Source of the DNA: Acidimicrobiaceae bacterium | Lineage (GTDB): Bacteria; Actinomycetota; Acidimicrobiia; Acidimicrobiales; RAAP-2 | Reading direction: 5' to 3' | DNA length: 9,428 nucleotides | NCBI GenBank assembly: GCA_003157945.1 | Contig: PMFY01000126.1 | Coordinates: 5,925-15,352 of the forward strand | Part shown: positions 812 through 9,428 of the stretch, piece by piece | Numbering within the stretch: the stretch's first letter is position 1 | How the letters are laid out: each line of letters starts with the position of its first letter | The notes under the pieces: model-generated | Databases searched by the model: none | Seen by the model: the letters and a program-made list of their open reading frames with translations, nothing else | What the model was told of the DNA's origin: nothing | Position numbers and translations under genes: made by a program

Positions 812-2248
812 GTGCCGCTCGTCCTGGGAGTGGACAGCTCCACCCAGTCGACGAAGGTGGAGGTACGCGACGCCGACGACGGCACGCTGGTGGGGTCCGG
901 CCGGGCACCGCACCCCGCGGTCCGCCCGCCCCGGTCCGAGCAGGACCCCGAGGCGTGGTGGGAGGCGCTGCGGCTGGCCGCCGCCGAGGCCACGGCTGAC
1001 GGGTCCCTCCGGGTGGCTGCGGTGTCGGTGGCCGCGCAGCAGCACGGCATGGTCGTTCTCGGCGGGGACGGCCGTGTCCTCCGTCCGGCCAAACTGTGGA
1101 ACGACACCGAATCGGCGGCGGAGGCGGAGCGCCTGGTGGCCCGGCTCGGGCCGGAGGCGTGGGCCGCCCGGACCGGGTCGGTCCCGGTGGCCGCCTTCAC
1201 CGTGACCAAGCTCGCCTGGCTGGCCCGCCACGAGCCGGAGACCGCCCGGGCGGTCCGGTCGGTACTGCTGCCCCACGACTACCTGACCCTCCGCCTGACC
1301 GGGCGTCGGGTGACCGACCGCGGCGACGCATCGGGGACCGGCTACTTCGACCCGACGGCGGGGGTGTGGCTGTGCGACCTGCTCGATGACGTGGTGGGGC
1401 CGGCCGACTGGGGCGCCCGGCTGCCGGAGGTGCTCGGGCCGTCCGAGTCCGCCGGGCCGCCGAGCCGGGACGGGTCGGCGGGGCTCGACATCGGGACGTT
1501 CGAGGTGGTCGGCCCCGGCACCGGCGACAACATGGCGGCGGCCCTCGGGATCGGACTCGCACCGGGCCAGGCCTGCCTGTCCCTCGGGACCTCGGGGACC
1601 GTCTACGCCCGTAGTGACCGGCCCGTCGCCGATCCGACCGGGACGATCGCCGGATTCGCCGATGCCACGGGCGGCTACCTCCCGCTCGCCTGCACCCTCA
1701 ACGCCACCCGGGTGACCGGGACGGTGGCCGGTCTCCTGGGCGTGACGGACGCGGGGCTGGACGACCTCGCACTGGCCACGGCCACCGGCTCGTCGGGGCT
1801 CACCCTCCTGCCGTACTTCGACGGGGAGCGCACACCGGACCGCCCGACGGCCACGGGCGTCATCGCCGGCCTGCGCTCCGTCGCCACCCGCGAAGGACTG
1901 GCCGCCGCCGCCTTCGAGGGCGTCGTGTGCGGTCTCCTCGACGCCCTCGATGCGCTGGCGCGGGAGGTGACCGTGGGGGACGGCCCCCTGTTGGTGGTGG
2001 GCGGCGGGTCGCGCTCGGCCGCGTACCGGCGTGCCGTGGCGGACCTGTCCGGTCGGCCGGTGCTGGTGCCCGATCTCGACGAGGCGGTGGCCACCGGCGC
2101 GTGCGTGCAGGCGGCGGCGGCCCTGTCGGGGCGCGATCCCGACGAGGTGCGCTCGGGCTGGGGGATCGGCGGCGCCACGTCGACCTCCCCCGACCCGGAG
2201 GTGGACGCGGCCGGGATCCGTCGGGCCTACGCCACCTTGCGCGGCTGA
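812..2248 (+). CDS. xylB: Xylulokinase (FGGY carbohydrate kinase family)
   Basis: This 478-residue cytoplasmic kinase would phosphorylate D-xylulose with ATP to xylulose 5-phosphate, the entry point to the pentose phosphate pathway. The N-terminal phosphate-binding loop is GVDSSTQSTK, with Asp8. QQHGMVVL and KLWNDTES follow as expected for xylulokinases. The GTGDNMAAALG segment carries the likely catalytic base, Asp239. The second half has LSLGTSGTVYA, PYFDGERTP and the adenosine-site motif GGGSRSAAYRRA (from about residue 397). The length is normal for the family. The GTG start follows the GH3 stop by only two bases, with no obvious separate ribosome site, so the two genes are probably co-transcribed and translationally coupled. 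No xylose isomerase or regulator lies in the window. Another FGGY substrate (such as ribulose or gluconate) is possible, but the motif set fits xylulokinase best. Confidence 0.93.
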   Translation: MPLVLGVDSSTQSTKVEVRDADDGTLVGSGRAPHPAVRPPRSEQDPEAWWEALRLAAAEATADGSLRVAAVSVAAQQHGMVVLGGDGRVLRPAKLWNDTESAAEAERLVARLGPEAWAARTGSVPVAAFTVTKLAWLARHEPETARAVRSVLLPHDYLTLRLTGRRVTDRGDASGTGYFDPTAGVWLCDLLDDVVGPADWGARLPEVLGPSESAGPPSRDGSAGLDIGTFEVVGPGTGDNMAAALGIGLAPGQACLSLGTSGTVYARSDRPVADPTGTIAGFADATGGYLPLACTLNATRVTGTVAGLLGVTDAGLDDLALATATGSSGLTLLPYFDGERTPDRPTATGVIAGLRSVATREGLAAAAFEGVVCGLLDALDALAREVTVGDGPLLVVGGGSRSAAYRRAVADLSGRPVLVPDLDEAVATGACVQAAAALSGRDPDEVRSGWGIGGATSTSPDPEVDAAGIRRAYATLRG

Positions 2249-2250
2249 GC

Positions 2251-2286
2251 GACGGGCACGGTACCGGCTCCGTTCGGGTGCCCGTC
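2251..2286 (+). terminator. Hairpin after xylB, possible terminator
   Basis: GACGGGCAC (2251-2259) pairs perfectly with GTGCCCGTC (2278-2286) around an 18-base loop, which can add an inner CCG/CGG pairing. It starts two bases after the xylB stop codon. There is no T-run after it, so intrinsic termination is not certain; in high-GC actinobacteria such hairpins often lack the run. It may separate the GH3-xylB transcript from the glycerate kinase gene. Confidence 0.5.
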
Positions 2287-2292
2287 CGTCGG

Positions 2293-2305
2293 TAGGGTGC
2301 AGGGA
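2293..2305 (+). promoter_or_regulatory. Probable leaderless promoter of the glycerate kinase gene
   Basis: A TAGGGT box (2293-2298) fits the actinobacterial TAnnnT -10 consensus. It ends six bases before the ATG at 2305, so transcription would begin at or next to the start codon. No Shine-Dalgarno sequence is seen in this gap and no good -35 box is visible. Leaderless genes are common in actinobacteria. This is inference from spacing alone. Confidence 0.45.
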
Positions 2306-3336
2306 TGCCCCGCGTCGTGCTGGCCCCGGACAAGTTCCGGGGCACCGCGACCGCTTCCGGGGCCGCGGCGGCGCTGGCGGGAGCCGCCACCCGGCTCGGC
2401 TGGGAGGCGGAGGCCATTCCGCTGTCCGACGGCGGCGAAGGCCTGCTCGAGGCGTGCGCCGTGGTGTGCCCCGAGGAGGAGTCGACCGTGGTCACGGCGC
2501 CGGACGGGTCGCCGGTCACCGCCCGGTGGCGGATCGGGGACCGGCTGGCGGTCGTGGAGTCGGCGCAGGCCTCCGGCCTGTCGCTCGTGGGCGGTTCCGA
2601 GGGCAACGACGCGATGACGGCCACGTCCCGGGGGACCGGCGAACTGCTGGTGGCTGCCGCGGCCCGAGTGGGGTCGGGTGGGACCGTCGTGGTCGGCCTC
2701 GGGGGGTCGGCGACCACCGACGGCGGCCTCGGGGCCCTCGAGGCCGTCGAGTCGGCCGGGGGGCTGGCGGGGGTGCACCTGGTCGGGGCCTTCGACGTGG
2801 CGACCCACTTCGTGGACGCCGCCCCGCTGTTCGCCCCGCAGAAGGGGGCGGACGCCGACCAGGTGGCCGCGCTGGCCAGCCGGCTCGAGGCGCTGGTCGA
2901 CCGCTACCGGTCGCGGTACGGCGTCGACGTGCGCGACCTGGCCGGGTCGGGTGCGGCCGGCGGCCTCGGCGGCGCACTGGCCGTACTGGGTGCCGAGCTC
3001 CGCTCCGGCTACGCCCTGGTGCACGACCTGGTGGGACTCGGCCCGGCCCTCGACGCGGCCGACCGGGTGGTGACCGGCGAGGGGGCGCTCGACGCCACGT
3101 CGTTCGCCGGCAAGGTCGTGGGCGGCGTCGTCGGCGACGCCCGGGACCGCGGCCTCCCCACCCTGGTGGTCGCCGGGAGGTGCAGCGACGAGGGGGCAGC
3201 CCGGGCCAGGGACGCCGGATGCGAAGTGGTCTCGCTCACCGAGCGCTTCGGACCACGACGGGCGACGGCGGAGACCGACGCCTGTCTGGCCCGGGTGGCC
3301 TCCGACTGGCTGGACACACCCGTCGGGGACGGCTGA
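2305..3336 (+). CDS. Glycerate kinase (GarK/GlxK-type family)
   Basis: This 343-residue cytoplasmic enzyme would phosphorylate D-glycerate with ATP to phosphoglycerate, feeding lower glycolysis. Family landmarks appear in order: APDKFRGT near the start (usually APDSFKG), PLSDGGEG (usually ADGGEG), GLGGSATTDGG at about residues 132-141, FAPQKGAD near 178, AGSGAAGGLGGALA, and VTGEGALDATSFAGK from about 256. The protein is somewhat shorter than the roughly 370-380 residues usual for the family, and several motif positions differ, so it is a divergent member. Whether it makes 2- or 3-phosphoglycerate cannot be read from the sequence. The ATG at 2305 is the best start because the conserved Ala-Pro-Asp motif begins six residues later. 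It does not overlap its neighbours: a hairpin and its own -10 box lie before it. Confidence 0.9.
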   Translation: MPRVVLAPDKFRGTATASGAAAALAGAATRLGWEAEAIPLSDGGEGLLEACAVVCPEEESTVVTAPDGSPVTARWRIGDRLAVVESAQASGLSLVGGSEGNDAMTATSRGTGELLVAAAARVGSGGTVVVGLGGSATTDGGLGALEAVESAGGLAGVHLVGAFDVATHFVDAAPLFAPQKGADADQVAALASRLEALVDRYRSRYGVDVRDLAGSGAAGGLGGALAVLGAELRSGYALVHDLVGLGPALDAADRVVTGEGALDATSFAGKVVGGVVGDARDRGLPTLVVAGRCSDEGAARARDAGCEVVSLTERFGPRRATAETDACLARVASDWLDTPVGDG

Positions 3337-3341
3337 CCCTC

Positions 3342-3386
3342 GGGGCAGAGGGGCAGAGGGGCAGAGGGGCAGAGGGGCAGAGGGGC
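3342..3386 (+). repeat. GGGGCAGA octamer tandem repeat, G-quadruplex-capable
   Basis: Five exact copies of GGGGCAGA (3342-3381) are followed by a partial GGGGC. They begin five bases after the glycerate kinase stop codon. The result is six GGGG runs separated by CAGA, more than enough for a four-tetrad G-quadruplex in the + strand DNA or in the transcript. Copy number may vary through replication slippage. I see no conventional hairpin terminator for the glycerate kinase gene, so this block may take that role; that is speculation. Confidence 0.85.
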
Positions 3387-3436
3387 GGGACCGCTCCGAT
3401 CGCTCCTCCGGCACCTGGGGGCCGGGCCGGGTGTGC

Positions 3437-3445
3437 TGCTACCAT
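3437..3445 (+). promoter_or_regulatory. Extended -10 promoter for the B12-controlled operon
   Basis: TGCTACCAT combines a TACCAT -10 hexamer (3440-3445) with a TGn extension one base upstream, as in extended -10 promoters. No -35 box is evident. The predicted transcript start, near 3452, lies just before the riboswitch core, giving a leader of about 220 bases. Confidence 0.5.
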
Positions 3446-3449
3446 CGGG

Positions 3450-3568
3450 TCAGCAACATGAAGTCCCCGGGCGGGGAAGCCGGTCGAATTCCGGCGCTGG
3501 TCCGCAACCGTAGGCGGCACATCGGGACCCCGAGGGGTCGGTGCCGCGAGTCGGGATGCCGCCCTGGA
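3450..3568 (+). ncRNA. Cobalamin riboswitch
   Basis: The conserved B12-box core is clear: GGGGAAGCCGG (3473-3483), then CCGGCGCTGGTCCGCAACCG (3491-3510), close to the usual GCTGnCCCGCAACTGTA, and the closing AGTCGGGATGCCGCC (3549-3563). GCCGG (3479-3483) pairs with CCGGC (3491-3495). GCGGCAC (3514-3520) pairs with GTGCCGC (3541-3547) and encloses a GACCC/GGGTC hairpin at 3526-3539. GGGCGG (3469-3474) pairs with CCGCCC (3559-3564) and closes the domain. The 5' part is short compared with classical members, so the left boundary is approximate. It would sense a cobalamin and turn down the downstream importer when B12 is plentiful. Confidence in the class is high; the preferred form (adenosyl-, methyl- or hydroxocobalamin) is unknown. 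Confidence 0.92.
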
Positions 3569-3671
3569 ACTTGATGAGTCCCGCCCGTCGAGAACAGCGG
3601 CACGGACTCGGTCATCGGAGCCAGCGAATCCTCCGGTGCTCCCGGGTCATGGCCCGGAATCGAGTAGCCCG
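3569..3671 (+). promoter_or_regulatory. Riboswitch expression platform (leader hairpins)
   Basis: This stretch lies between the aptamer and the ATG at 3672. GAGTCC (3576-3581) can pair with GGACTC (3604-3609). CATCGGAG (3613-3620) can pair over eight bases (one G-U) with CTCCGGTG (3631-3638). CCGGG (3642-3646) can pair with CCCGG (3653-3657). None is followed by a T-run, so control of translation or a factor-dependent terminator is more likely than classical intrinsic termination. No clear Shine-Dalgarno site precedes 3672, so the mechanism stays open. Confidence 0.5.
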
Positions 3672-4787
3672 ATGTCCATCACCAGGCGCCGCCGGTCGGC
3701 AGCTCCCGATGGAGACACCAGCCGGTCACCGCGGGTGGGCCGCGTCCGTGGCCGGCGGCGGTTCGCCCGGGGTGCCCTGGTCGTCGCCGCCGGCACGGCG
3801 GCCCTCTCGCTGGCCGGGCCCCTCGCCCTCCGGCCCTTCGCCGACGCCGCCCACGCCGCCGGTTCGGCCGGGGAGGTCTCGGTCGCCTTCGTGCTCGACT
3901 TCGGTGGCTCGTCCGGCGACCAGGTGGTCGGGTGCGTGACGGTCCCCTCGAGCGACACCCGGTACGACGCGCTCGCCGCCTTCGTCCAGGAGAAGGGCCT
4001 GACCCAGCCGGGTTACGCCCCGAGTGGACTGCTGTGCTCGATCAACGGTGTCCCCAGCAGTGGTTGCGGGCAGGTCATCGACGGCGGCTACATCTACTGG
4101 GCCTACTTCACGGGGGGAGCGCACGGCTGGGTCTACTCCTCCACGGGGGCGTTCGGCACCGTTGGGACGGACGACGTCGAGGGCTGGCGATTCGAGAACC
4201 CCGGGTCCGGCAACCCGGGCGACCCCGGCCCGCGCACCGCTCCTCGCTACAACGCCATCTGCGGCTCGACGACGCCCACGACCCTCCCGACCGGTGGGTC
4301 CGGGGGCGGTGGCGGTGGCCATGGCGGTGGTGGCGGTGGTGGTGCTGGTCAGGGCCGTGCGCATACCGCGACCCACTCCCGCACGCCGGGTGGGGCGGCC
4401 GCCGCCTCCGGCGGCCCGTCCACCACGAGTTCGTCGCCCACCCCGTCGTCGACTGCGCCGTCGACCACCACGTCGACCGTGTGTCCGAACCCCACAACCT
4501 CGTCAACCACAACCTCGTCGACCACCTCGACGCCCCCCACCTCGTCGGCCGCCGCCTCGTCCACCACGACGTCGACCACCTCGACGACCCCGTGCCCGGA
4601 CACGGCCACGTCGTCCCCGGACACGTCCGTCACGACCGATCCCACGGTGGGACTCGCCAACACGCGACACGCCTCCTCCGGGGGATCGGGACCGGGCCCG
4701 GACCCGATGATCGTCGGTGGCCTGCTGATCGCCGCCCTGGCCATCGCCGGATACACCCGGTGGCGGAAGCGTCCCCGCACCCCATGA
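3672..4787 (+). CDS. Exported, membrane-anchored DUF4430 (transcobalamin-like) protein; probable cobalamin capture protein
   Basis: The protein is 371 residues long. Residues 21-63 look like an export signal: an Arg-rich start with a twin-arginine-like RRRFAR (28-33), a hydrophobic core (about 34-53) and a possible cleavage site near AHA-A (60-63). Residues 68-176 match the DUF4430 pattern, with EVSVAFVLDFGG, a GYAPSGLLCSINGV segment, GGYIYWAYFTGGAHGWVYSS and DDVEGWRFENPG. Cys88, Cys122, Cys132 and Cys197 could form disulfides. A Gly-rich linker (about 207-230) and a long Ser/Thr-rich stalk (to about 325) follow. Then comes a membrane helix (346-361) with a basic cytoplasmic tail. DUF4430 is related to the C-terminal domain of intrinsic factor and transcobalamin. 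With the riboswitch upstream and the ECF genes downstream, a tethered corrinoid-binding protein is the likely role (inference). An in-frame GTG at 3636 is an alternative start, but it lies in a leader hairpin and adds nothing conserved. Confidence 0.85.
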   Translation: MSITRRRRSAAPDGDTSRSPRVGRVRGRRRFARGALVVAAGTAALSLAGPLALRPFADAAHAAGSAGEVSVAFVLDFGGSSGDQVVGCVTVPSSDTRYDALAAFVQEKGLTQPGYAPSGLLCSINGVPSSGCGQVIDGGYIYWAYFTGGAHGWVYSSTGAFGTVGTDDVEGWRFENPGSGNPGDPGPRTAPRYNAICGSTTPTTLPTGGSGGGGGGHGGGGGGGAGQGRAHTATHSRTPGGAAAASGGPSTTSSSPTPSSTAPSTTTSTVCPNPTTSSTTTSSTTSTPPTSSAAASSTTTSTTSTTPCPDTATSSPDTSVTTDPTVGLANTRHASSGGSGPGPDPMIVGGLLIAALAIAGYTRWRKRPRTP

Positions 4788-4800
4788 GGAGCCGGCCCGG

Positions 4801-5997
4801 ATGAGCCGCCCGACCCTCGCCGGCCCCGGGCGACGGGGCCTCCATCCCGGTGCCTGGTGGCTGTGGGCGGCCTGCCTGGCCGGCGCCGCGTCACGGACCA
4901 CGAACCCGATCCTGCTGCTCCTGCTGGGCGCCGTGGTCCTGTACGTCGCGGCGGCCCGCCGGACGGACGCCCCCTGGTCGCGGTCGATCGTGGTGTTCCT
5001 CCGGCTCGGACTCGTCGTCATCCTCATCCGGGTCGTCCTGGTGATCGTCTTCGGCAACCGGCTGCCCGGGCACGTCCTGTTCACGCTGCCGCACGTACCC
5101 CTGCCGTCGTGGGCGGCCGGCGTGAGCATCGGCGGCCCGGTGACCGCCGAGGCCGTCCTGGCGGCGGTGGTGCAGGGCCTCCGGCTGGCCGTGGTGCTCG
5201 TCTGCTTCGGCGCCGCCAACTCGCTGGCCAGCCCCTACCGCCTCCTGCGCTGCCTGCCGGCCGTGCTCTACGAGGCCGGCGTGGCCATCACCGTGGCGCT
5301 GTCCTTCGCCCCGGAGCTGGTGATGGCCATCACCGACGTCCGTGCCGCCCGTCGGCTGCGCGGCCGCCCCGTCCGTGGACTGGCCGGATTGCGCGGCACG
5401 GCGGTGCCGGTGCTCGAGCGCGCCCTCGACCGCTCGCTGCAGCTGGCGTCGTCGATGGACGCCCGCGGCTACGGCCGGCGGGTGGCCGTGGCCCGCGGGG
5501 TGCGCCGCACGGCGACCGGGGCGACCGCCGGTGGGCTGCTGCTGGTGGTCGCCGGTGTCTACGGCGTCCTGGTGGCGGGCTCGCTGCCCGGGGGCGGCAT
5601 CCCGTTCGTGGCCGTCGGTGCCGTGCTGGTGGGGGCCGGACTGGCCACCGGGGGTCGCCGGACCAACCGGACGAGGTACCGACCGGACCCGTGGGGCCTG
5701 CCCGAATGGCTGGTGGCGGGCTCGGGGGTGGTGGCACTGACCTCGCTGGTGGTCTCCGGCGTCCTCGGCGTTCCCGGACTCGAGTACGTACTGTCGCCGC
5801 TGCGCCCGCCGACCCTGCCGGTGGCGGCCGCGGTCGGGATCCTCGTCGGACTGGTGCCGGCCTGGGCCGCGCCGGTGGAGCGCACGGCACCCGTGACCCG
5901 GGTCACCCCGAGGACCCGACCGACCGATGGGGCGGTTCCCGGAGCGCCCGCGCCGGTGGTGACCCCGACCGTCGTCCGCGGAAGGACCGTCGCATGA
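4801..5997 (+). CDS. ECF transporter T component (CbiQ/EcfT family, extended C-terminus)
   Basis: This 398-residue membrane protein would be the scaffold subunit that couples ATP hydrolysis to the S component. Several hydrophobic segments fill the first 170 residues. The two Arg-containing coupling motifs then appear as VRAARRLRGR (about 180-189) and MDARGYGRR (219-227), the second being the diagnostic Ala-Arg-Gly box that docks into the ATPase. Typical EcfT proteins have about 265 residues. This one continues with four more hydrophobic segments (about 240-260, 267-283, 301-322, 342-362) and a Pro/Thr-rich tail. The ATG follows the DUF4430 stop by 13 bases, with AGGAG at 4787-4791 as its ribosome site, overlapping that stop codon. 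Its own stop overlaps the ATPase start (ATGA). The family call is firm; cobalamin specificity comes from context. Confidence 0.9.
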   Translation: MSRPTLAGPGRRGLHPGAWWLWAACLAGAASRTTNPILLLLLGAVVLYVAAARRTDAPWSRSIVVFLRLGLVVILIRVVLVIVFGNRLPGHVLFTLPHVPLPSWAAGVSIGGPVTAEAVLAAVVQGLRLAVVLVCFGAANSLASPYRLLRCLPAVLYEAGVAITVALSFAPELVMAITDVRAARRLRGRPVRGLAGLRGTAVPVLERALDRSLQLASSMDARGYGRRVAVARGVRRTATGATAGGLLLVVAGVYGVLVAGSLPGGGIPFVAVGAVLVGAGLATGGRRTNRTRYRPDPWGLPEWLVAGSGVVALTSLVVSGVLGVPGLEYVLSPLRPPTLPVAAAVGILVGLVPAWAAPVERTAPVTRVTPRTRPTDGAVPGAPAPVVTPTVVRGRTVA

Positions 5998-7616
5998 TCC
6001 GGTTCGAGGACGTCACGTTCAGCTACGACGGTGCCGACCGTCCCACCCTCGACCACGTCGACCTGGTCGTGGGGGAGGGTGAGCTGTGCGTGGTGGTCGG
6101 ACCCACCGGGTCGGGCAAGACCACCTTGCTGCGCGCCGTCAACGGACTGGTGCCCCACTTCACCGGCGGCCGACTCTCCGGCGAGGTGCTGGTCGACGGC
6201 CGGTCCACCCGGGAGTTCCCCCCGCGCGAGCTGGCCGACGTGGTCGGGATGGTCGGGCAGAACCCCGCGGCCAGCTTCGTGACCGACGTCGTCGAGGACG
6301 AGCTGGCCTACACGATGGAGAACCTGGGGCTCGACCCGGCCGTCATGCGGCGCCGGGTGGAGGACGCCCTCGACCTGCTCGGCCTGCACGACCTCCGCTA
6401 CCGGCCGCTCGGCACGCTGTCCGGGGGACAGCAGCAGCGGGTGGCGATCGGAGCCGTGCTGACCGCGTCACCCCGGGTGCTGGTGCTCGACGAGCCGACA
6501 TCGGCCCTCGACCCGGCCGCGGCGGAGGAGGTACTGGCGTCCCTGACCCGCCTCGTCCACGACCTCGGCCTCACCGTCCTGTTGGCCGAGCACCGGCTGG
6601 AGCGGGTGCTCCCGTTCGCCGACTCGGTGGTGCTCGTGCCGGGTGGGGGCGGTCGGCTCAACGTCGGACCGGCGGCCGAGGTCATGGTCGACGCACCCGT
6701 CGCCCCACCGCTGGTGGAGCTCGGTCGCCTCGCCGGCTGGGACCCGCTGCCCCTGTCGGTGCGGGACGCCCGGCGCCTGGTGTCGCCGCTGCGCGACCGC
6801 CTGGTCGGGGCCGTGCCGCCACGCACCGTCCCCGTGCCCGACGGCCCGGCGGTCGCCCGGCTCGACCGGGTGACCGTGCGCTTCGGCGACGTCACCGCCC
6901 TCGACGGCTGTGACCTCGAGTTCCGGGCGGGTGAGGTCGTCGCCGTCATGGGACGGAACGGCTCCGGCAAGTCCACGCTCCTCGGACAGCTGGCCGGTGT
7001 GCGCGGGCCCACGTCGGGACGGGTGCAGGTGGCCGGTCAGGATCCCACGGGACTCTCCCCGCGTGACCTCGTCGCCCGGGTCGGCCTCGTCCCCCAGGAC
7101 GCCGGCCTGCTCCTCTACGGCGACTCGGTGGCGGCCGAGTGCCGGGGCGCCGACCACGACACGGGACTGGACGCCGGCACGACTGCGGCCGTGCTGGAGC
7201 GGATCCTGCCGGGCCTGCCGGCCGACCGGCACCCCCGTGACCTGTCCGAGGGCCAACGCCTGGCCCTCGCCCTGGCCGTGGTCCTCGCCCCGGCCCCGCC
7301 CCTCCTCCTGCTCGACGAGCCCACGCGCGGCCTGGACTACCCCGCCAAGGCCCGGCTGGTGACACTCCTGGGTGACCTGGCCGCCGCCGGGCACGCCGTG
7401 GTGATGGCCACCCATGACGTCGAGCTGGTGGCCCGGGTGGCGACACGCGGTGTCGTGCTGGCCGAGGGCGAGGTCGTGGCCGACGGGCCGGCCCGGGACG
7501 TGGTCTGTCAGTCGCCCGTCTTCGCCCCCCAGGTGGCCAAGGTGCTGGCGCCCGATCCGTGGCTGACGGTGGACGAGGTCCGGACGGCACTCGAGGTGGG
7601 GGCGGTCCGTGGTTGA
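5994..7616 (+). CDS. ECF transporter ATPase, two ABC domains fused (EcfA-EcfA')
   Basis: This 540-residue protein holds both nucleotide-binding domains of an ECF importer on one chain. Domain 1 has Walker A GPTGSGKT (36-43), a Q-loop in MVGQNP, signature LSGGQ (142-146), Walker B VLVLDEPT with Glu167, and a switch His200 in AEHR. Domain 2 has Walker A GRNGSGKS (320-327), Q-loop VPQD, signature LSEGQ (417-421), Walker B LLLLDEPT with Glu442, and His474 in ATHD. All catalytic elements are intact in both halves, so two active ATP sites are expected. The same frame is open far upstream (from 4857), but that part overlaps the T component. The ATG at 5994 directly precedes the conserved beta strand, overlaps the T stop by four bases and has GGAAGGA (5980-5986) at good spacing. 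It would act at the inner membrane face with the T and S proteins. Confidence 0.95.
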   Translation: MIRFEDVTFSYDGADRPTLDHVDLVVGEGELCVVVGPTGSGKTTLLRAVNGLVPHFTGGRLSGEVLVDGRSTREFPPRELADVVGMVGQNPAASFVTDVVEDELAYTMENLGLDPAVMRRRVEDALDLLGLHDLRYRPLGTLSGGQQQRVAIGAVLTASPRVLVLDEPTSALDPAAAEEVLASLTRLVHDLGLTVLLAEHRLERVLPFADSVVLVPGGGGRLNVGPAAEVMVDAPVAPPLVELGRLAGWDPLPLSVRDARRLVSPLRDRLVGAVPPRTVPVPDGPAVARLDRVTVRFGDVTALDGCDLEFRAGEVVAVMGRNGSGKSTLLGQLAGVRGPTSGRVQVAGQDPTGLSPRDLVARVGLVPQDAGLLLYGDSVAAECRGADHDTGLDAGTTAAVLERILPGLPADRHPRDLSEGQRLALALAVVLAPAPPLLLLDEPTRGLDYPAKARLVTLLGDLAAAGHAVVMATHDVELVARVATRGVVLAEGEVVADGPARDVVCQSPVFAPQVAKVLAPDPWLTVDEVRTALEVGAVRG

Positions 7617-8454
7617 GCGGGGGAGCAGCCGCGCGGTCGTCCGCCTCCGGTCGCGGTCCTCGGTGCTCCTCCTCGTCACGTCCATCGTGGGGCTCGTCGG
7701 GTTCTCGTGGCCGCTGTTCCTGCACGGCAGCTCGTCGGTCGCCCAGGCCCACTCGGCGGATGCCCCGTGGATCTTCATCGCCGTGCTGCCCCTGCTCCTC
7801 GCCGTCGTGCTCAGCGCCCTGGCCGAGGGCTCGCTCGACGCCAAGGCCATCGCCCTGCTCGGCATCCTGGCGGCGTGCGGTGCGGCGCTGCGGATCCCCA
7901 GTCCCGGTGTGGCCGGTTTCGAGCCCGTGTTCTTCCTCCTCATCCCCGCCGGTCGGGTCATGGGCCGCGGATTCGGGTTCGTACTGGGTGTCCTGACCCT
8001 GGCCGTCTCCGCGCTCATCACGGGTGGGATGGGGCCGTGGCTCCCCTTCCAGATGTTCGGGGCGGGCTGGCTCGGCTTCGGCGCCGGGTGCCTGCCGCCG
8101 ACGAAGGGCCGGGCCGAGGTCTGGCTCCTGGCCGGCTACGCCGCCGTCGCCTGCCTGCTCTACGGCACGCTCCTGAATCTGTACTTCTGGCCGTTCGGAG
8201 CGGGGACGGACACCAGCTTCTCGTTCGTTCCCGGTGCAGGCATGCTGCACAACCTCCACAGCTTCGTGCTGTTCGACCTCACCACCTCGCTGGGCTTCGA
8301 CATCCCCCGGGCGCTCACCAACGCCGCCCTCGTCCTCCTCCTCGGCAGGCCGGTGCTCGCCGCACTCCGCCGGGCCAGCCGCCGGGCGGCCTTCGACGCC
8401 CCGGTCGTCCTCGAGCCGGGCCGCACGCCGGCCGCGGACACGCCGGCCGCCTGA
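7609..8454 (+). CDS. ECF transporter S component (substrate-binding membrane subunit), probable cobalamin/corrinoid specificity
   Basis: This 281-residue membrane protein has about six hydrophobic segments (roughly 17-38, 53-72, 80-96, 104-135, 145-163 and 172-192), with a further one near the C-terminus. The stretch FEPVFFLLIPAGRVMG, then FGFVLGVLTLAVSALITGG and MGPWLPFQMFGAGWLGFGAG, is the pattern I know from actinobacterial ECF S components. In the importer this subunit binds the vitamin and topples in the membrane to deliver it. The GTG start overlaps the end of the ATPase gene by eight bases, so translation is probably coupled; a G-rich GGTGGGGGCGG lies just upstream. The ligand is inferred from the riboswitch and the DUF4430 gene; an S component cannot be assigned a vitamin from these motifs alone. 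A corrinoid precursor such as cobinamide is an alternative. Confidence 0.85.
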   Translation: MVERGSSRAVVRLRSRSSVLLLVTSIVGLVGFSWPLFLHGSSSVAQAHSADAPWIFIAVLPLLLAVVLSALAEGSLDAKAIALLGILAACGAALRIPSPGVAGFEPVFFLLIPAGRVMGRGFGFVLGVLTLAVSALITGGMGPWLPFQMFGAGWLGFGAGCLPPTKGRAEVWLLAGYAAVACLLYGTLLNLYFWPFGAGTDTSFSFVPGAGMLHNLHSFVLFDLTTSLGFDIPRALTNAALVLLLGRPVLAALRRASRRAAFDAPVVLEPGRTPAADTPAA

Positions 8455-8456
8455 CC

Positions 8457-8496
8457 GGTCCCGTCCGGACGGCACGTGACCTGCCCGGTCGGGACC
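8457..8496 (+). terminator. Long imperfect hairpin after the transporter operon
   Basis: GGTCCCG (8457-8463) pairs with CGGGACC (8490-8496). The stem continues after a T-T mismatch with CCGG (8465-8468) to CCGG (8485-8488) and three more pairs, leaving an eight-base loop. It begins two bases after the S-component stop codon. The left arm contains a perfect 12-base palindrome, CCGTCCGGACGG (8461-8472). There is no T-run. The position suggests a terminator for the B12 operon. Confidence 0.5.
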
Positions 8497-8524
8497 CACC
8501 TGGGCCGGATGCCCTGTCCGGCCC

Positions 8525-8530
8525 TACACT
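8525..8530 (+). promoter_or_regulatory. Probable -10 box of the acyl-CoA synthetase gene
   Basis: TACACT fits the TAnnnT -10 pattern and resembles the other two proposed boxes in this window. It lies 59 bases before the GTG start, after the hairpin that closes the transporter operon. No convincing -35 element is seen. Confidence 0.4.
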
Positions 8531-8577
8531 CACAGTCCACGCCGGAGACATCCCGCCGGCCCGCGTACGTGGTGAAC

Positions 8578-8584
8578 GAGGAGG
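8578..8584 (+). promoter_or_regulatory. Strong ribosome binding site deciding the acyl-CoA synthetase start
   Basis: GAGGAGG ends five bases before the GTG at 8590. It is the best Shine-Dalgarno match in the window and makes that GTG the preferred start, although no ATG is available nearby in the frame. Confidence 0.7.
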
Positions 8585-8589
8585 CGACC

Positions 8590-9428
8590 GTGTCGGTCAC
8601 ACATGAGGAGGCCCTGGCCCAGGTGACCGGGCCCGGCCAGCTGTTCGAGGTGGTCCCGGTCACGGCCGGCGGACGCGACGTCCGGGTGTTCAAGAACGCC
8701 CCGACCAACCTGGGTCAGATGTTCGCCGGCGCCCGCGGCGACCAGTCCACCTTCATGGTCTACGAGGACGAGCGCTGGACGTTCGGCGAGACCATGCGAA
8801 ACGTCGACGCACTGGCCCACACCCTCGTCAACCAGTACGGGATCACGCGGGGCGACCGGGTCGGGATCGCCATGCGGAACCTGCCCGAGTGGATCGTCTC
8901 GTTCGCCGCCATCCTGTCGGTGGGGGCGATCTCGGTCTCCCTCAACGCCTGGTGGACAGAGTCCGAGCTCGACTACGCCATCGAGGACTCGGGCCTGTCC
9001 CTGCTGATCGCCGATCCGGAGCGCATCGAGCGGGCCCATGCGCCGGCCCACTCCCGCGGGATCCCGATGATCATGGTGCGCGGCGACCAGCTCGAGCCCA
9101 ATCCGACCGGTGTCTCCCGCTACGACGAGGTGGTGACCCTCGGCGATCCGATGCCGGAGGTCGAGGTCGACCCCGATGACGACGCCACGATCCTCTACAC
9201 GTCGGGCACCACCGGGTTTCCGAAGGGCGCCGTCTCCACCCACCGCGCCGTGATCAACGGGCTGATGGGCTTCTGGTGCAACACCACCATCCAGACCGCC
9301 CGCAAGGGCGAGGACGCCCTGGGCACCGGAGGCGCCTACGCCCCGTGTTTCATCCTCATCGTCCCGCTCTTCCACGTGACGGGCTGCGTGCCCGTGATGC
9401 TCTCCTGCTTCGGCATGAAGTTCAAGCT
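8590..9428 (+). CDS. Acyl-CoA synthetase / AMP-binding (class I adenylate-forming) enzyme, 3' end outside window
   Basis: The first 279 residues of an adenylate-forming ligase are present; the frame is still open at the window edge. The family is usually about 500-570 residues, so roughly half is seen. Residues 203-213 (YTSGTTGFPKG) are the diagnostic P-loop-like AMP-binding motif. Earlier family landmarks are YEDERWTFGE, the GDRVGIAMRNLPEW stretch with AILSVGAISVSLNAWW, and YAIEDSGLSLLIAD. The later FILIVPLFHVTG fits the acyl-pocket region. Such enzymes activate a carboxylic acid, commonly a fatty acid, with ATP to an acyl-adenylate and then transfer it to coenzyme A. The chain length or exact substrate cannot be judged because the C-terminal half is missing. 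The gene has its own probable promoter and is separated from the B12 operon by a hairpin, so a link with vitamin uptake is not suggested. Confidence 0.92.
   Translation, partial: MSVTHEEALAQVTGPGQLFEVVPVTAGGRDVRVFKNAPTNLGQMFAGARGDQSTFMVYEDERWTFGETMRNVDALAHTLVNQYGITRGDRVGIAMRNLPEWIVSFAAILSVGAISVSLNAWWTESELDYAIEDSGLSLLIADPERIERAHAPAHSRGIPMIMVRGDQLEPNPTGVSRYDEVVTLGDPMPEVEVDPDDDATILYTSGTTGFPKGAVSTHRAVINGLMGFWCNTTIQTARKGEDALGTGGAYAPCFILIVPLFHVTGCVPVMLSCFGMKFK

Follow-up and report, generated by a model that had tools for sequence, protein, structure and literature searches.

Energy-coupling factor (ECF) importers are thought to catch vitamins by the membrane S component alone. In animals, cobalamin (B12) is carried by intrinsic factor, transcobalamin and haptocorrin, in each of which two domains are fused in one secreted protein that is taken up by a receptor. 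Here we analyse a stretch of 9,428 nucleotides from an Acidimicrobiaceae bacterium (assembly GCA_003157945.1, contig PMFY01000126.1, positions 5,925 to 15,352, forward strand), called the window, in which an operon behind a cobalamin riboswitch encodes an ECF importer together with an exported, membrane-anchored protein that resembles the beta domain of transcobalamin (the beta protein).

The idea put forward in the first-pass annotation of this DNA has a precedent: for other bacteria, Burroughs et al. (2007) had already predicted that B12 is scavenged outside the cell by transcobalamin-like proteins encoded next to CbiO/CbiQ genes (PMC1796856). Their transcobalamin-like SLBB clade resembles the present loci in having extracellular domains similar to the transcobalamin C-terminal domain, toroids, and neighbouring genes for a CbiO-like ATPase and a CbiQ-like protein, and the scavenging was predicted for bacteria without B12 synthesis genes (PMC1796856). 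For their clade, low-GC Gram-positives, planctomycetes and euryarchaea are named, and the toroid is fused to the domain, whereas here we have an actinobacterial branch that is missed by the Pfam family DUF4430, with separate genes and, in some cases, two riboswitches. Riboswitches are not mentioned in the Burroughs text (PMC1796856). The animal carriers differ in that here there are two proteins, one of them membrane-anchored, beside an ECF importer, with about 11-18% sequence identity to the carriers.

Of the described importers, ECF-CbrT (PMC5997447) has the same S component family, an EcfT and two ATPase domains. In L. delbrueckii, CbrT uses a common ECF module and lies in the locus nrdJ-cbrS-cbrT-pduO (PMC5997447), whereas the window operon is a dedicated one, which encodes an ECF module for itself and also a beta protein located outside the cell. 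BtuFCD is likewise an ATP-driven corrinoid importer with an external binder, but no Pfam domain of a BtuF-type protein or BtuC-type permease was found among the eight window proteins scanned. According to a 2009 survey, about 10% of the bacteria that take up B12 lack BtuFCD (PMC2667541). In L. rhamnosus, an "additional lipoprotein component of putative cobalamin ECF transporter" has been annotated (PMC9963975), which is a similar idea of an extra surface component at the level of annotation. Finally, the NCBI families SCO2321_fam (NF053823) and SCO2322_fam (NF040672) are remote, sub-threshold relatives of the toroid and beta proteins respectively, with a circularly permuted order compared to the Acidimicrobiales proteins; their NCBI names state no function. 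What is new here is the divergent actinobacterial branch, the riboswitch evidence, the split arrangement and a fusion of S component and toroid. The literature searched, which was mainly open-access and did not have SCO2321 as a search term, yielded no experimental test, no actinobacterial two-riboswitch arrangement and no S-toroid fusion.

The operon consists of four tightly packed genes on the forward strand, 3' of the riboswitch, in the order beta protein, EcfT, double ATPase and S component. The frames overlap by a few bases at the EcfT/ATPase and ATPase/S component junctions. The features are as follows.

3474-3560, + strand: cobalamin riboswitch aptamer core (RF00174, 33.4 bits, E 1.4e-5)
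3585-3592, + strand: conserved element CCGTCGAG, directly 3' of the aptamer, invariant in 20/20 aligned riboswitch regions
3672-4787, + strand: exported membrane-anchored protein with a transcobalamin-beta-like domain, 371 aa (start as in P0001)
3861-4274, + strand: beta-grasp domain, extent as modelled
4275-4706, + strand: low-complexity stalk, rich in T, S, G and P (from composition and sequence)
4707-4787, + strand: anchor, a C-terminal hydrophobic segment and basic tail (from sequence and hydropathy)
4801-5997, + strand: EcfT, transmembrane coupling protein (CbiQ PF02361, E 1.6e-7, over the cut-off)
5997-7616, + strand: fused double ATPase (EcfA-EcfA'), 539 aa (ABC_tran in two stretches)
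7609-8454, + strand: S component, CbrT type (family profile A4 against PDB 6fnp_A)

On the basis of directly observed gene order, riboswitch, folds, family links and co-occurrence, we propose, with a probability of about 0.7, that this operon serves corrinoid uptake, the anchored beta-grasp protein and a separate toroid clamping a corrinoid and feeding it to the CbrT-type S component. The host would be an Acidimicrobiales-like bacterium, probably without corrin ring synthesis, in which scarcity of B12 would lead the riboswitch to permit expression of the operon. The beta-grasp protein, comparable to the beta domain of intrinsic factor or transcobalamin, would act outside the cell with an alpha/alpha toroid that is encoded by a gene of its own and corresponds to the alpha domain. 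Together they would clamp the corrinoid between them and hand it to the S component; its passage through the membrane would be powered by the double ATPase and EcfT.

A B12 riboswitch ahead of four packed genes had been called in the first-pass annotation, and the call is upheld. The RF00174 match passes the gathering score of 31.5 bits only narrowly, and taken by itself gives modest support. Because the score is near the Rfam cut-off, 19 riboswitches at related loci, not including those of L023, L024 and L030, were aligned with that of the window. The core is almost unvarying across this alignment, and 9 of the 18 predicted pairs have changes on both sides with pairing kept in at least one sequence. 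The end of the aptamer lies 112 nt from the ATG of the beta gene at 3672. The element CCGTCGAG is possibly part of the expression platform. It contains TCGA (3588-3591), which could pair with TCGA in an aptamer loop (3484-3487); a kissing-loop is not claimed, because the first loop reads TCAA in several relatives. The N-termini of two annotated proteins, P0028 and P0065, are the translated riboswitch core (MKSPGGEAGR.PALVRNRR), which points to a mis-called start site and is also evidence of a riboswitch there.

The T subunit, fused double ATPase and S component were also correctly recognised. The double ATPase scores under the cut-offs of the NCBIfam ECF ATPase models. The S component sequence by itself has no Pfam or NCBIfam match. 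Profile A4, made from 25 S-component relatives, matches 6fnp_A with E 4.1e-8, the sole other match having E 1.6. The structure 6FNP is ECF-CbrT, an importer of cobalamin and cobinamide (PMC5997447), and its chain A is presumably CbrT, from its length of 182 aa and the profile match. The transporter is well supported as a CbrT-type ECF importer.

The start of the beta protein is taken from P0001, a 100%-identical homologue that begins at ATG 3672; the longest open frame begins at 3636. The protein has a hydrophobic stretch at the N-terminus. Its C-terminal segment has a hydropathy of 1.57, slightly below the line of 1.6 that is passed by 105 of the 118 homologues longer than 250 aa among the matches listed. 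The homologue search found 238 homologues, and the C-terminal anchor pattern recurs in homologues. The modelled domain folds as a beta-grasp, like the beta domain of transcobalamin. Residues 51-52 and 58-61 of the model form short strands after a helix at 34-44, a candidate for the beta-hairpin insert that follows the helix in the transcobalamin-like SLBB clade. The proposal of an externally anchored, transcobalamin-like domain is supported.

Its placement in DUF4430 fares less well. Pfam gives no match for the beta protein even at E 10, neither to DUF4430 (PF14478) nor to any other family, and the assignment therefore rests on the fold and on a remote likeness found by hhalign. SCO2322_fam matches the protein with 49.9 bits, below its cut-off of 85. 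A PDB sequence search with the beta alignment gave chance-like matches only, the best being PsaF (E 0.004). The label PF28005.1, which is precomputed for homologues, was not returned by the Pfam scan here. A search of a plasmid collection gave no match.

In relatives, a gene for a secreted alpha/alpha toroid lies between the riboswitch and the beta gene. This is the fold of the other half of intrinsic factor. There is no toroid gene within the window itself, nor in the window-type operons of L001, L005, L019 and L022. One could suppose that the tethered beta protein catches corrinoid for the S component by itself, and that the toroid is a separate B12-regulated protein with another task, which we regard as unlikely. 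Consistent with it, no toroid stands between the beta gene and the upstream sequence in the window, in these four loci or in L023 and L024; one genome of the phylum, G072, has the beta gene and a riboswitch match and no toroid match; and solo transcobalamin C-terminal domains in fishes are cited by Burroughs et al. (PMC1796856). Against it, B12 is sandwiched between, and contacted by, both domains of transcobalamin (PMC1796856), and further evidence comes from the distribution of the toroid.

A whole-genome search found the toroid in eight of ten related genomes (not in G002 or G010). In the genomes of L001, L005, L019 and L022, the four closest relatives examined, it is on other contigs, behind a separate cobalamin riboswitch, and the window organism would similarly carry it elsewhere in its genome. 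An independent riboswitch search showed an RF00174 match no more than 270 nt ahead of the toroid match in six genomes (G001, G003, G004, G007, G008 and G009). At least 15 RF00174 matches occur in the ten genomes, and 14/15 adjoin the toroid or the beta operon (one of the 14, in G010, is slightly below the cut-off). The sole listed match away from these genes is G009:C227:1520-1634. In L010 (545-4257) there is a tandem pair of toroid genes ahead of the beta gene, with no EcfT or S component directly after it. Since the relatives have the toroid half, in the same operon or behind a second riboswitch, the lone stalked domain is probably not the binder that the first-pass annotation took it for.

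The toroid fold also raises the idea of a terpene-cyclase-like enzyme, with cobalt or some other ligand as the cargo of the importer and nothing more than a common fold behind the likeness to intrinsic factor. The catalytic motif of squalene-hopene cyclase is DXDD. It is present in none of the 17 aligned toroids; the site reads D-x-[D/N]-S in all 17, with N in three. Furthermore, judged from sequence, the proteins are exported, the S family resembles CbrT, and cobalamin riboswitches precede both toroid and beta genes, so that an enzymatic role is highly improbable. The eukaryotic cobalamin-binding family PF01122 matched two toroids with E 0.07 and 0.22, below any cut-off, and is not used as proof.

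A wider survey covered 149 genomes of Actinomycetota. SCO2322_fam matches 23 of them at E <= 1e-3, four over its cut-off, and the surroundings of the beta gene were counted in 22, leaving out G001. The first-pass annotation had named homologous loci under another regulator as grounds for giving up its reading, and the outcome was in favour of that reading: an RF00174 match lies within about 2.1 kb upstream of the beta relative on the same strand in 18/22 genomes, nine of these matches being below the Rfam cut-off, with none in that range in G012, G032, G033 and G117. A toroid match (SCO2321_fam) lies within about 2 kb upstream of the beta gene in 18/22 genomes. In G112 and G144 the toroid lies at a different place, preceded by a separate riboswitch match (which in G112 is under the cut-off); none was matched in G072, and the match in G068 is doubtful. 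Most of these toroid matches are under the family cut-off, and sub-cut-off matches also occur in 3/14 control genomes. This adjacency, and the separate riboswitches of G112 and G144, argue against the beta protein as a lone catcher.

Pfam DUF4430 itself matches 26/149 genomes; three of 20 loci, at contig edges (L062, L071 and L072), were left out of the DUF4430 profile. An RF00174 match lies at most 4 kb upstream in 17/24 genomes, three of the matches being below the cut-off. G050 and G117, counted apart, also have one in that range (below the cut-off in G117), giving 19/26 overall. In several DUF4430 loci the EcfT, ATPase, S component and toroid occur together. One operon of G050, L083:2174-4474(-), has a riboswitch, a DUF4430 protein, a toroid and a SCO2322-like protein, and thus both beta types. 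In L076:448-2991 and L081:749-3421, the first gene after the riboswitch, before DUF4430, encodes a secreted protein of large size, 848 aa in L076 and 891 aa in L081; that of L076 has PQQ-type propeller and DUF5719 matches.

In another branch the toroid is fused to the S component, a further point against the lone catcher. The order in L077 (genome G065) is riboswitch, DUF4430-like gene, second DUF4430 gene, EcfT, double ATPase and a fusion frame. The last, L077:3420-5453(-), is a single open frame of S component, toroid and C-terminal hydrophobic segment. It has at least 120 homologues of 542-693 aa among the matches listed, drawn from 5904 with E <= 1e-30 among 7994 scored. The window-type S profile matches all 120 listed (E <= 1.4e-16), and the S and toroid parts are common to all 15 that were aligned, so that the L077 fusion is no lone artefact. 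A precomputed ECF Pfam label is present in seven of the 120, and one listed row names Solirubrobacterales.

The fold, the control by riboswitches common to both genes, their adjacency and the fusion of S component and toroid together suggest that beta protein and toroid bind corrinoid, and we infer that they act jointly and pass it to the S component. The odds are slightly in favour of a more general reading, that Actinomycetota have an external two-piece transcobalamin, both halves switched by cobalamin riboswitches, which closes over a corrinoid and docks on a CbrT-type S component or, in Thermoleophilia-like bacteria, is fused to it.

A need for corrinoid is suggested by the close genomes, which are drafts: CbiC is found in 0/10, and B12-binding domains in 10/10. 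The frame lengths of the B12-binding proteins would suit methylmalonyl-CoA mutase and MetH. The window bacterium is probably unable to make the corrin ring. An expected depletion of CbiC in genomes with the beta gene was not seen (5/23, compared to 35/126 without it). For carriers of beta and DUF4430 joined, the count is 7/47 compared to 33/102 in the others. In the phylum as a whole, a genome may have both the beta gene and CbiC.

Instead of cobalamin, the substrate might be a different cobamide, or a corrinoid that is incomplete or a precursor (cobinamide, cobyrinate diamide). Cobalamin riboswitches sense the end product and not the imported form, which is compatible with a precursor; cobinamide is also imported by CbrT (PMC5997447), and one review annotates CbrUVT for cobyrinate diamide uptake. 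We consider this quite unlikely as a separate explanation; it is a variant of corrinoid uptake by the same machine, and the data here do not separate the substrates.

If the pairs bind corrinoid, the rule that the S component acts alone would have an exception across Actinomycetota, the families SCO2321 and SCO2322 would gain a function, and corrinoid auxotrophs would have a recognisable uptake system. The arrangement also offers a parallel in bacteria, open to testing, to the animal B12 carriers with their two domains. Should the two-piece reading be true, ECF importers that have a clamp for the substrate outside the cell would form a class, and a bacterial equivalent of intrinsic factor and of its hand-over on the receptor side would be spread over the phylum.

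The toroid and beta proteins of some loci are circularly permuted compared to the Acidimicrobiales versions, their halves matching in swapped order. The beta proteins of L036 and L037 have no permutation.

L086:3092-4402; L088:8335-9717(-); L030:1708-3027(-): toroid and beta proteins of this permutation comparison
L031:1060-2115; L032:1297-2286(-); L023:6821-7576: further toroid and beta proteins of this permutation comparison

Upstream of the window operon are xylulokinase-like and glycerate kinase genes (812-3336), and downstream an acyl-CoA-synthetase-like gene (8476-9426). The same flanking genes recur in L001 and L019, and the glycerate kinase and synthetase genes in L022. A run of near-identical repeats of the GGCAGAGG type (3341-3390) lies after the glycerate kinase gene and ahead of the riboswitch.
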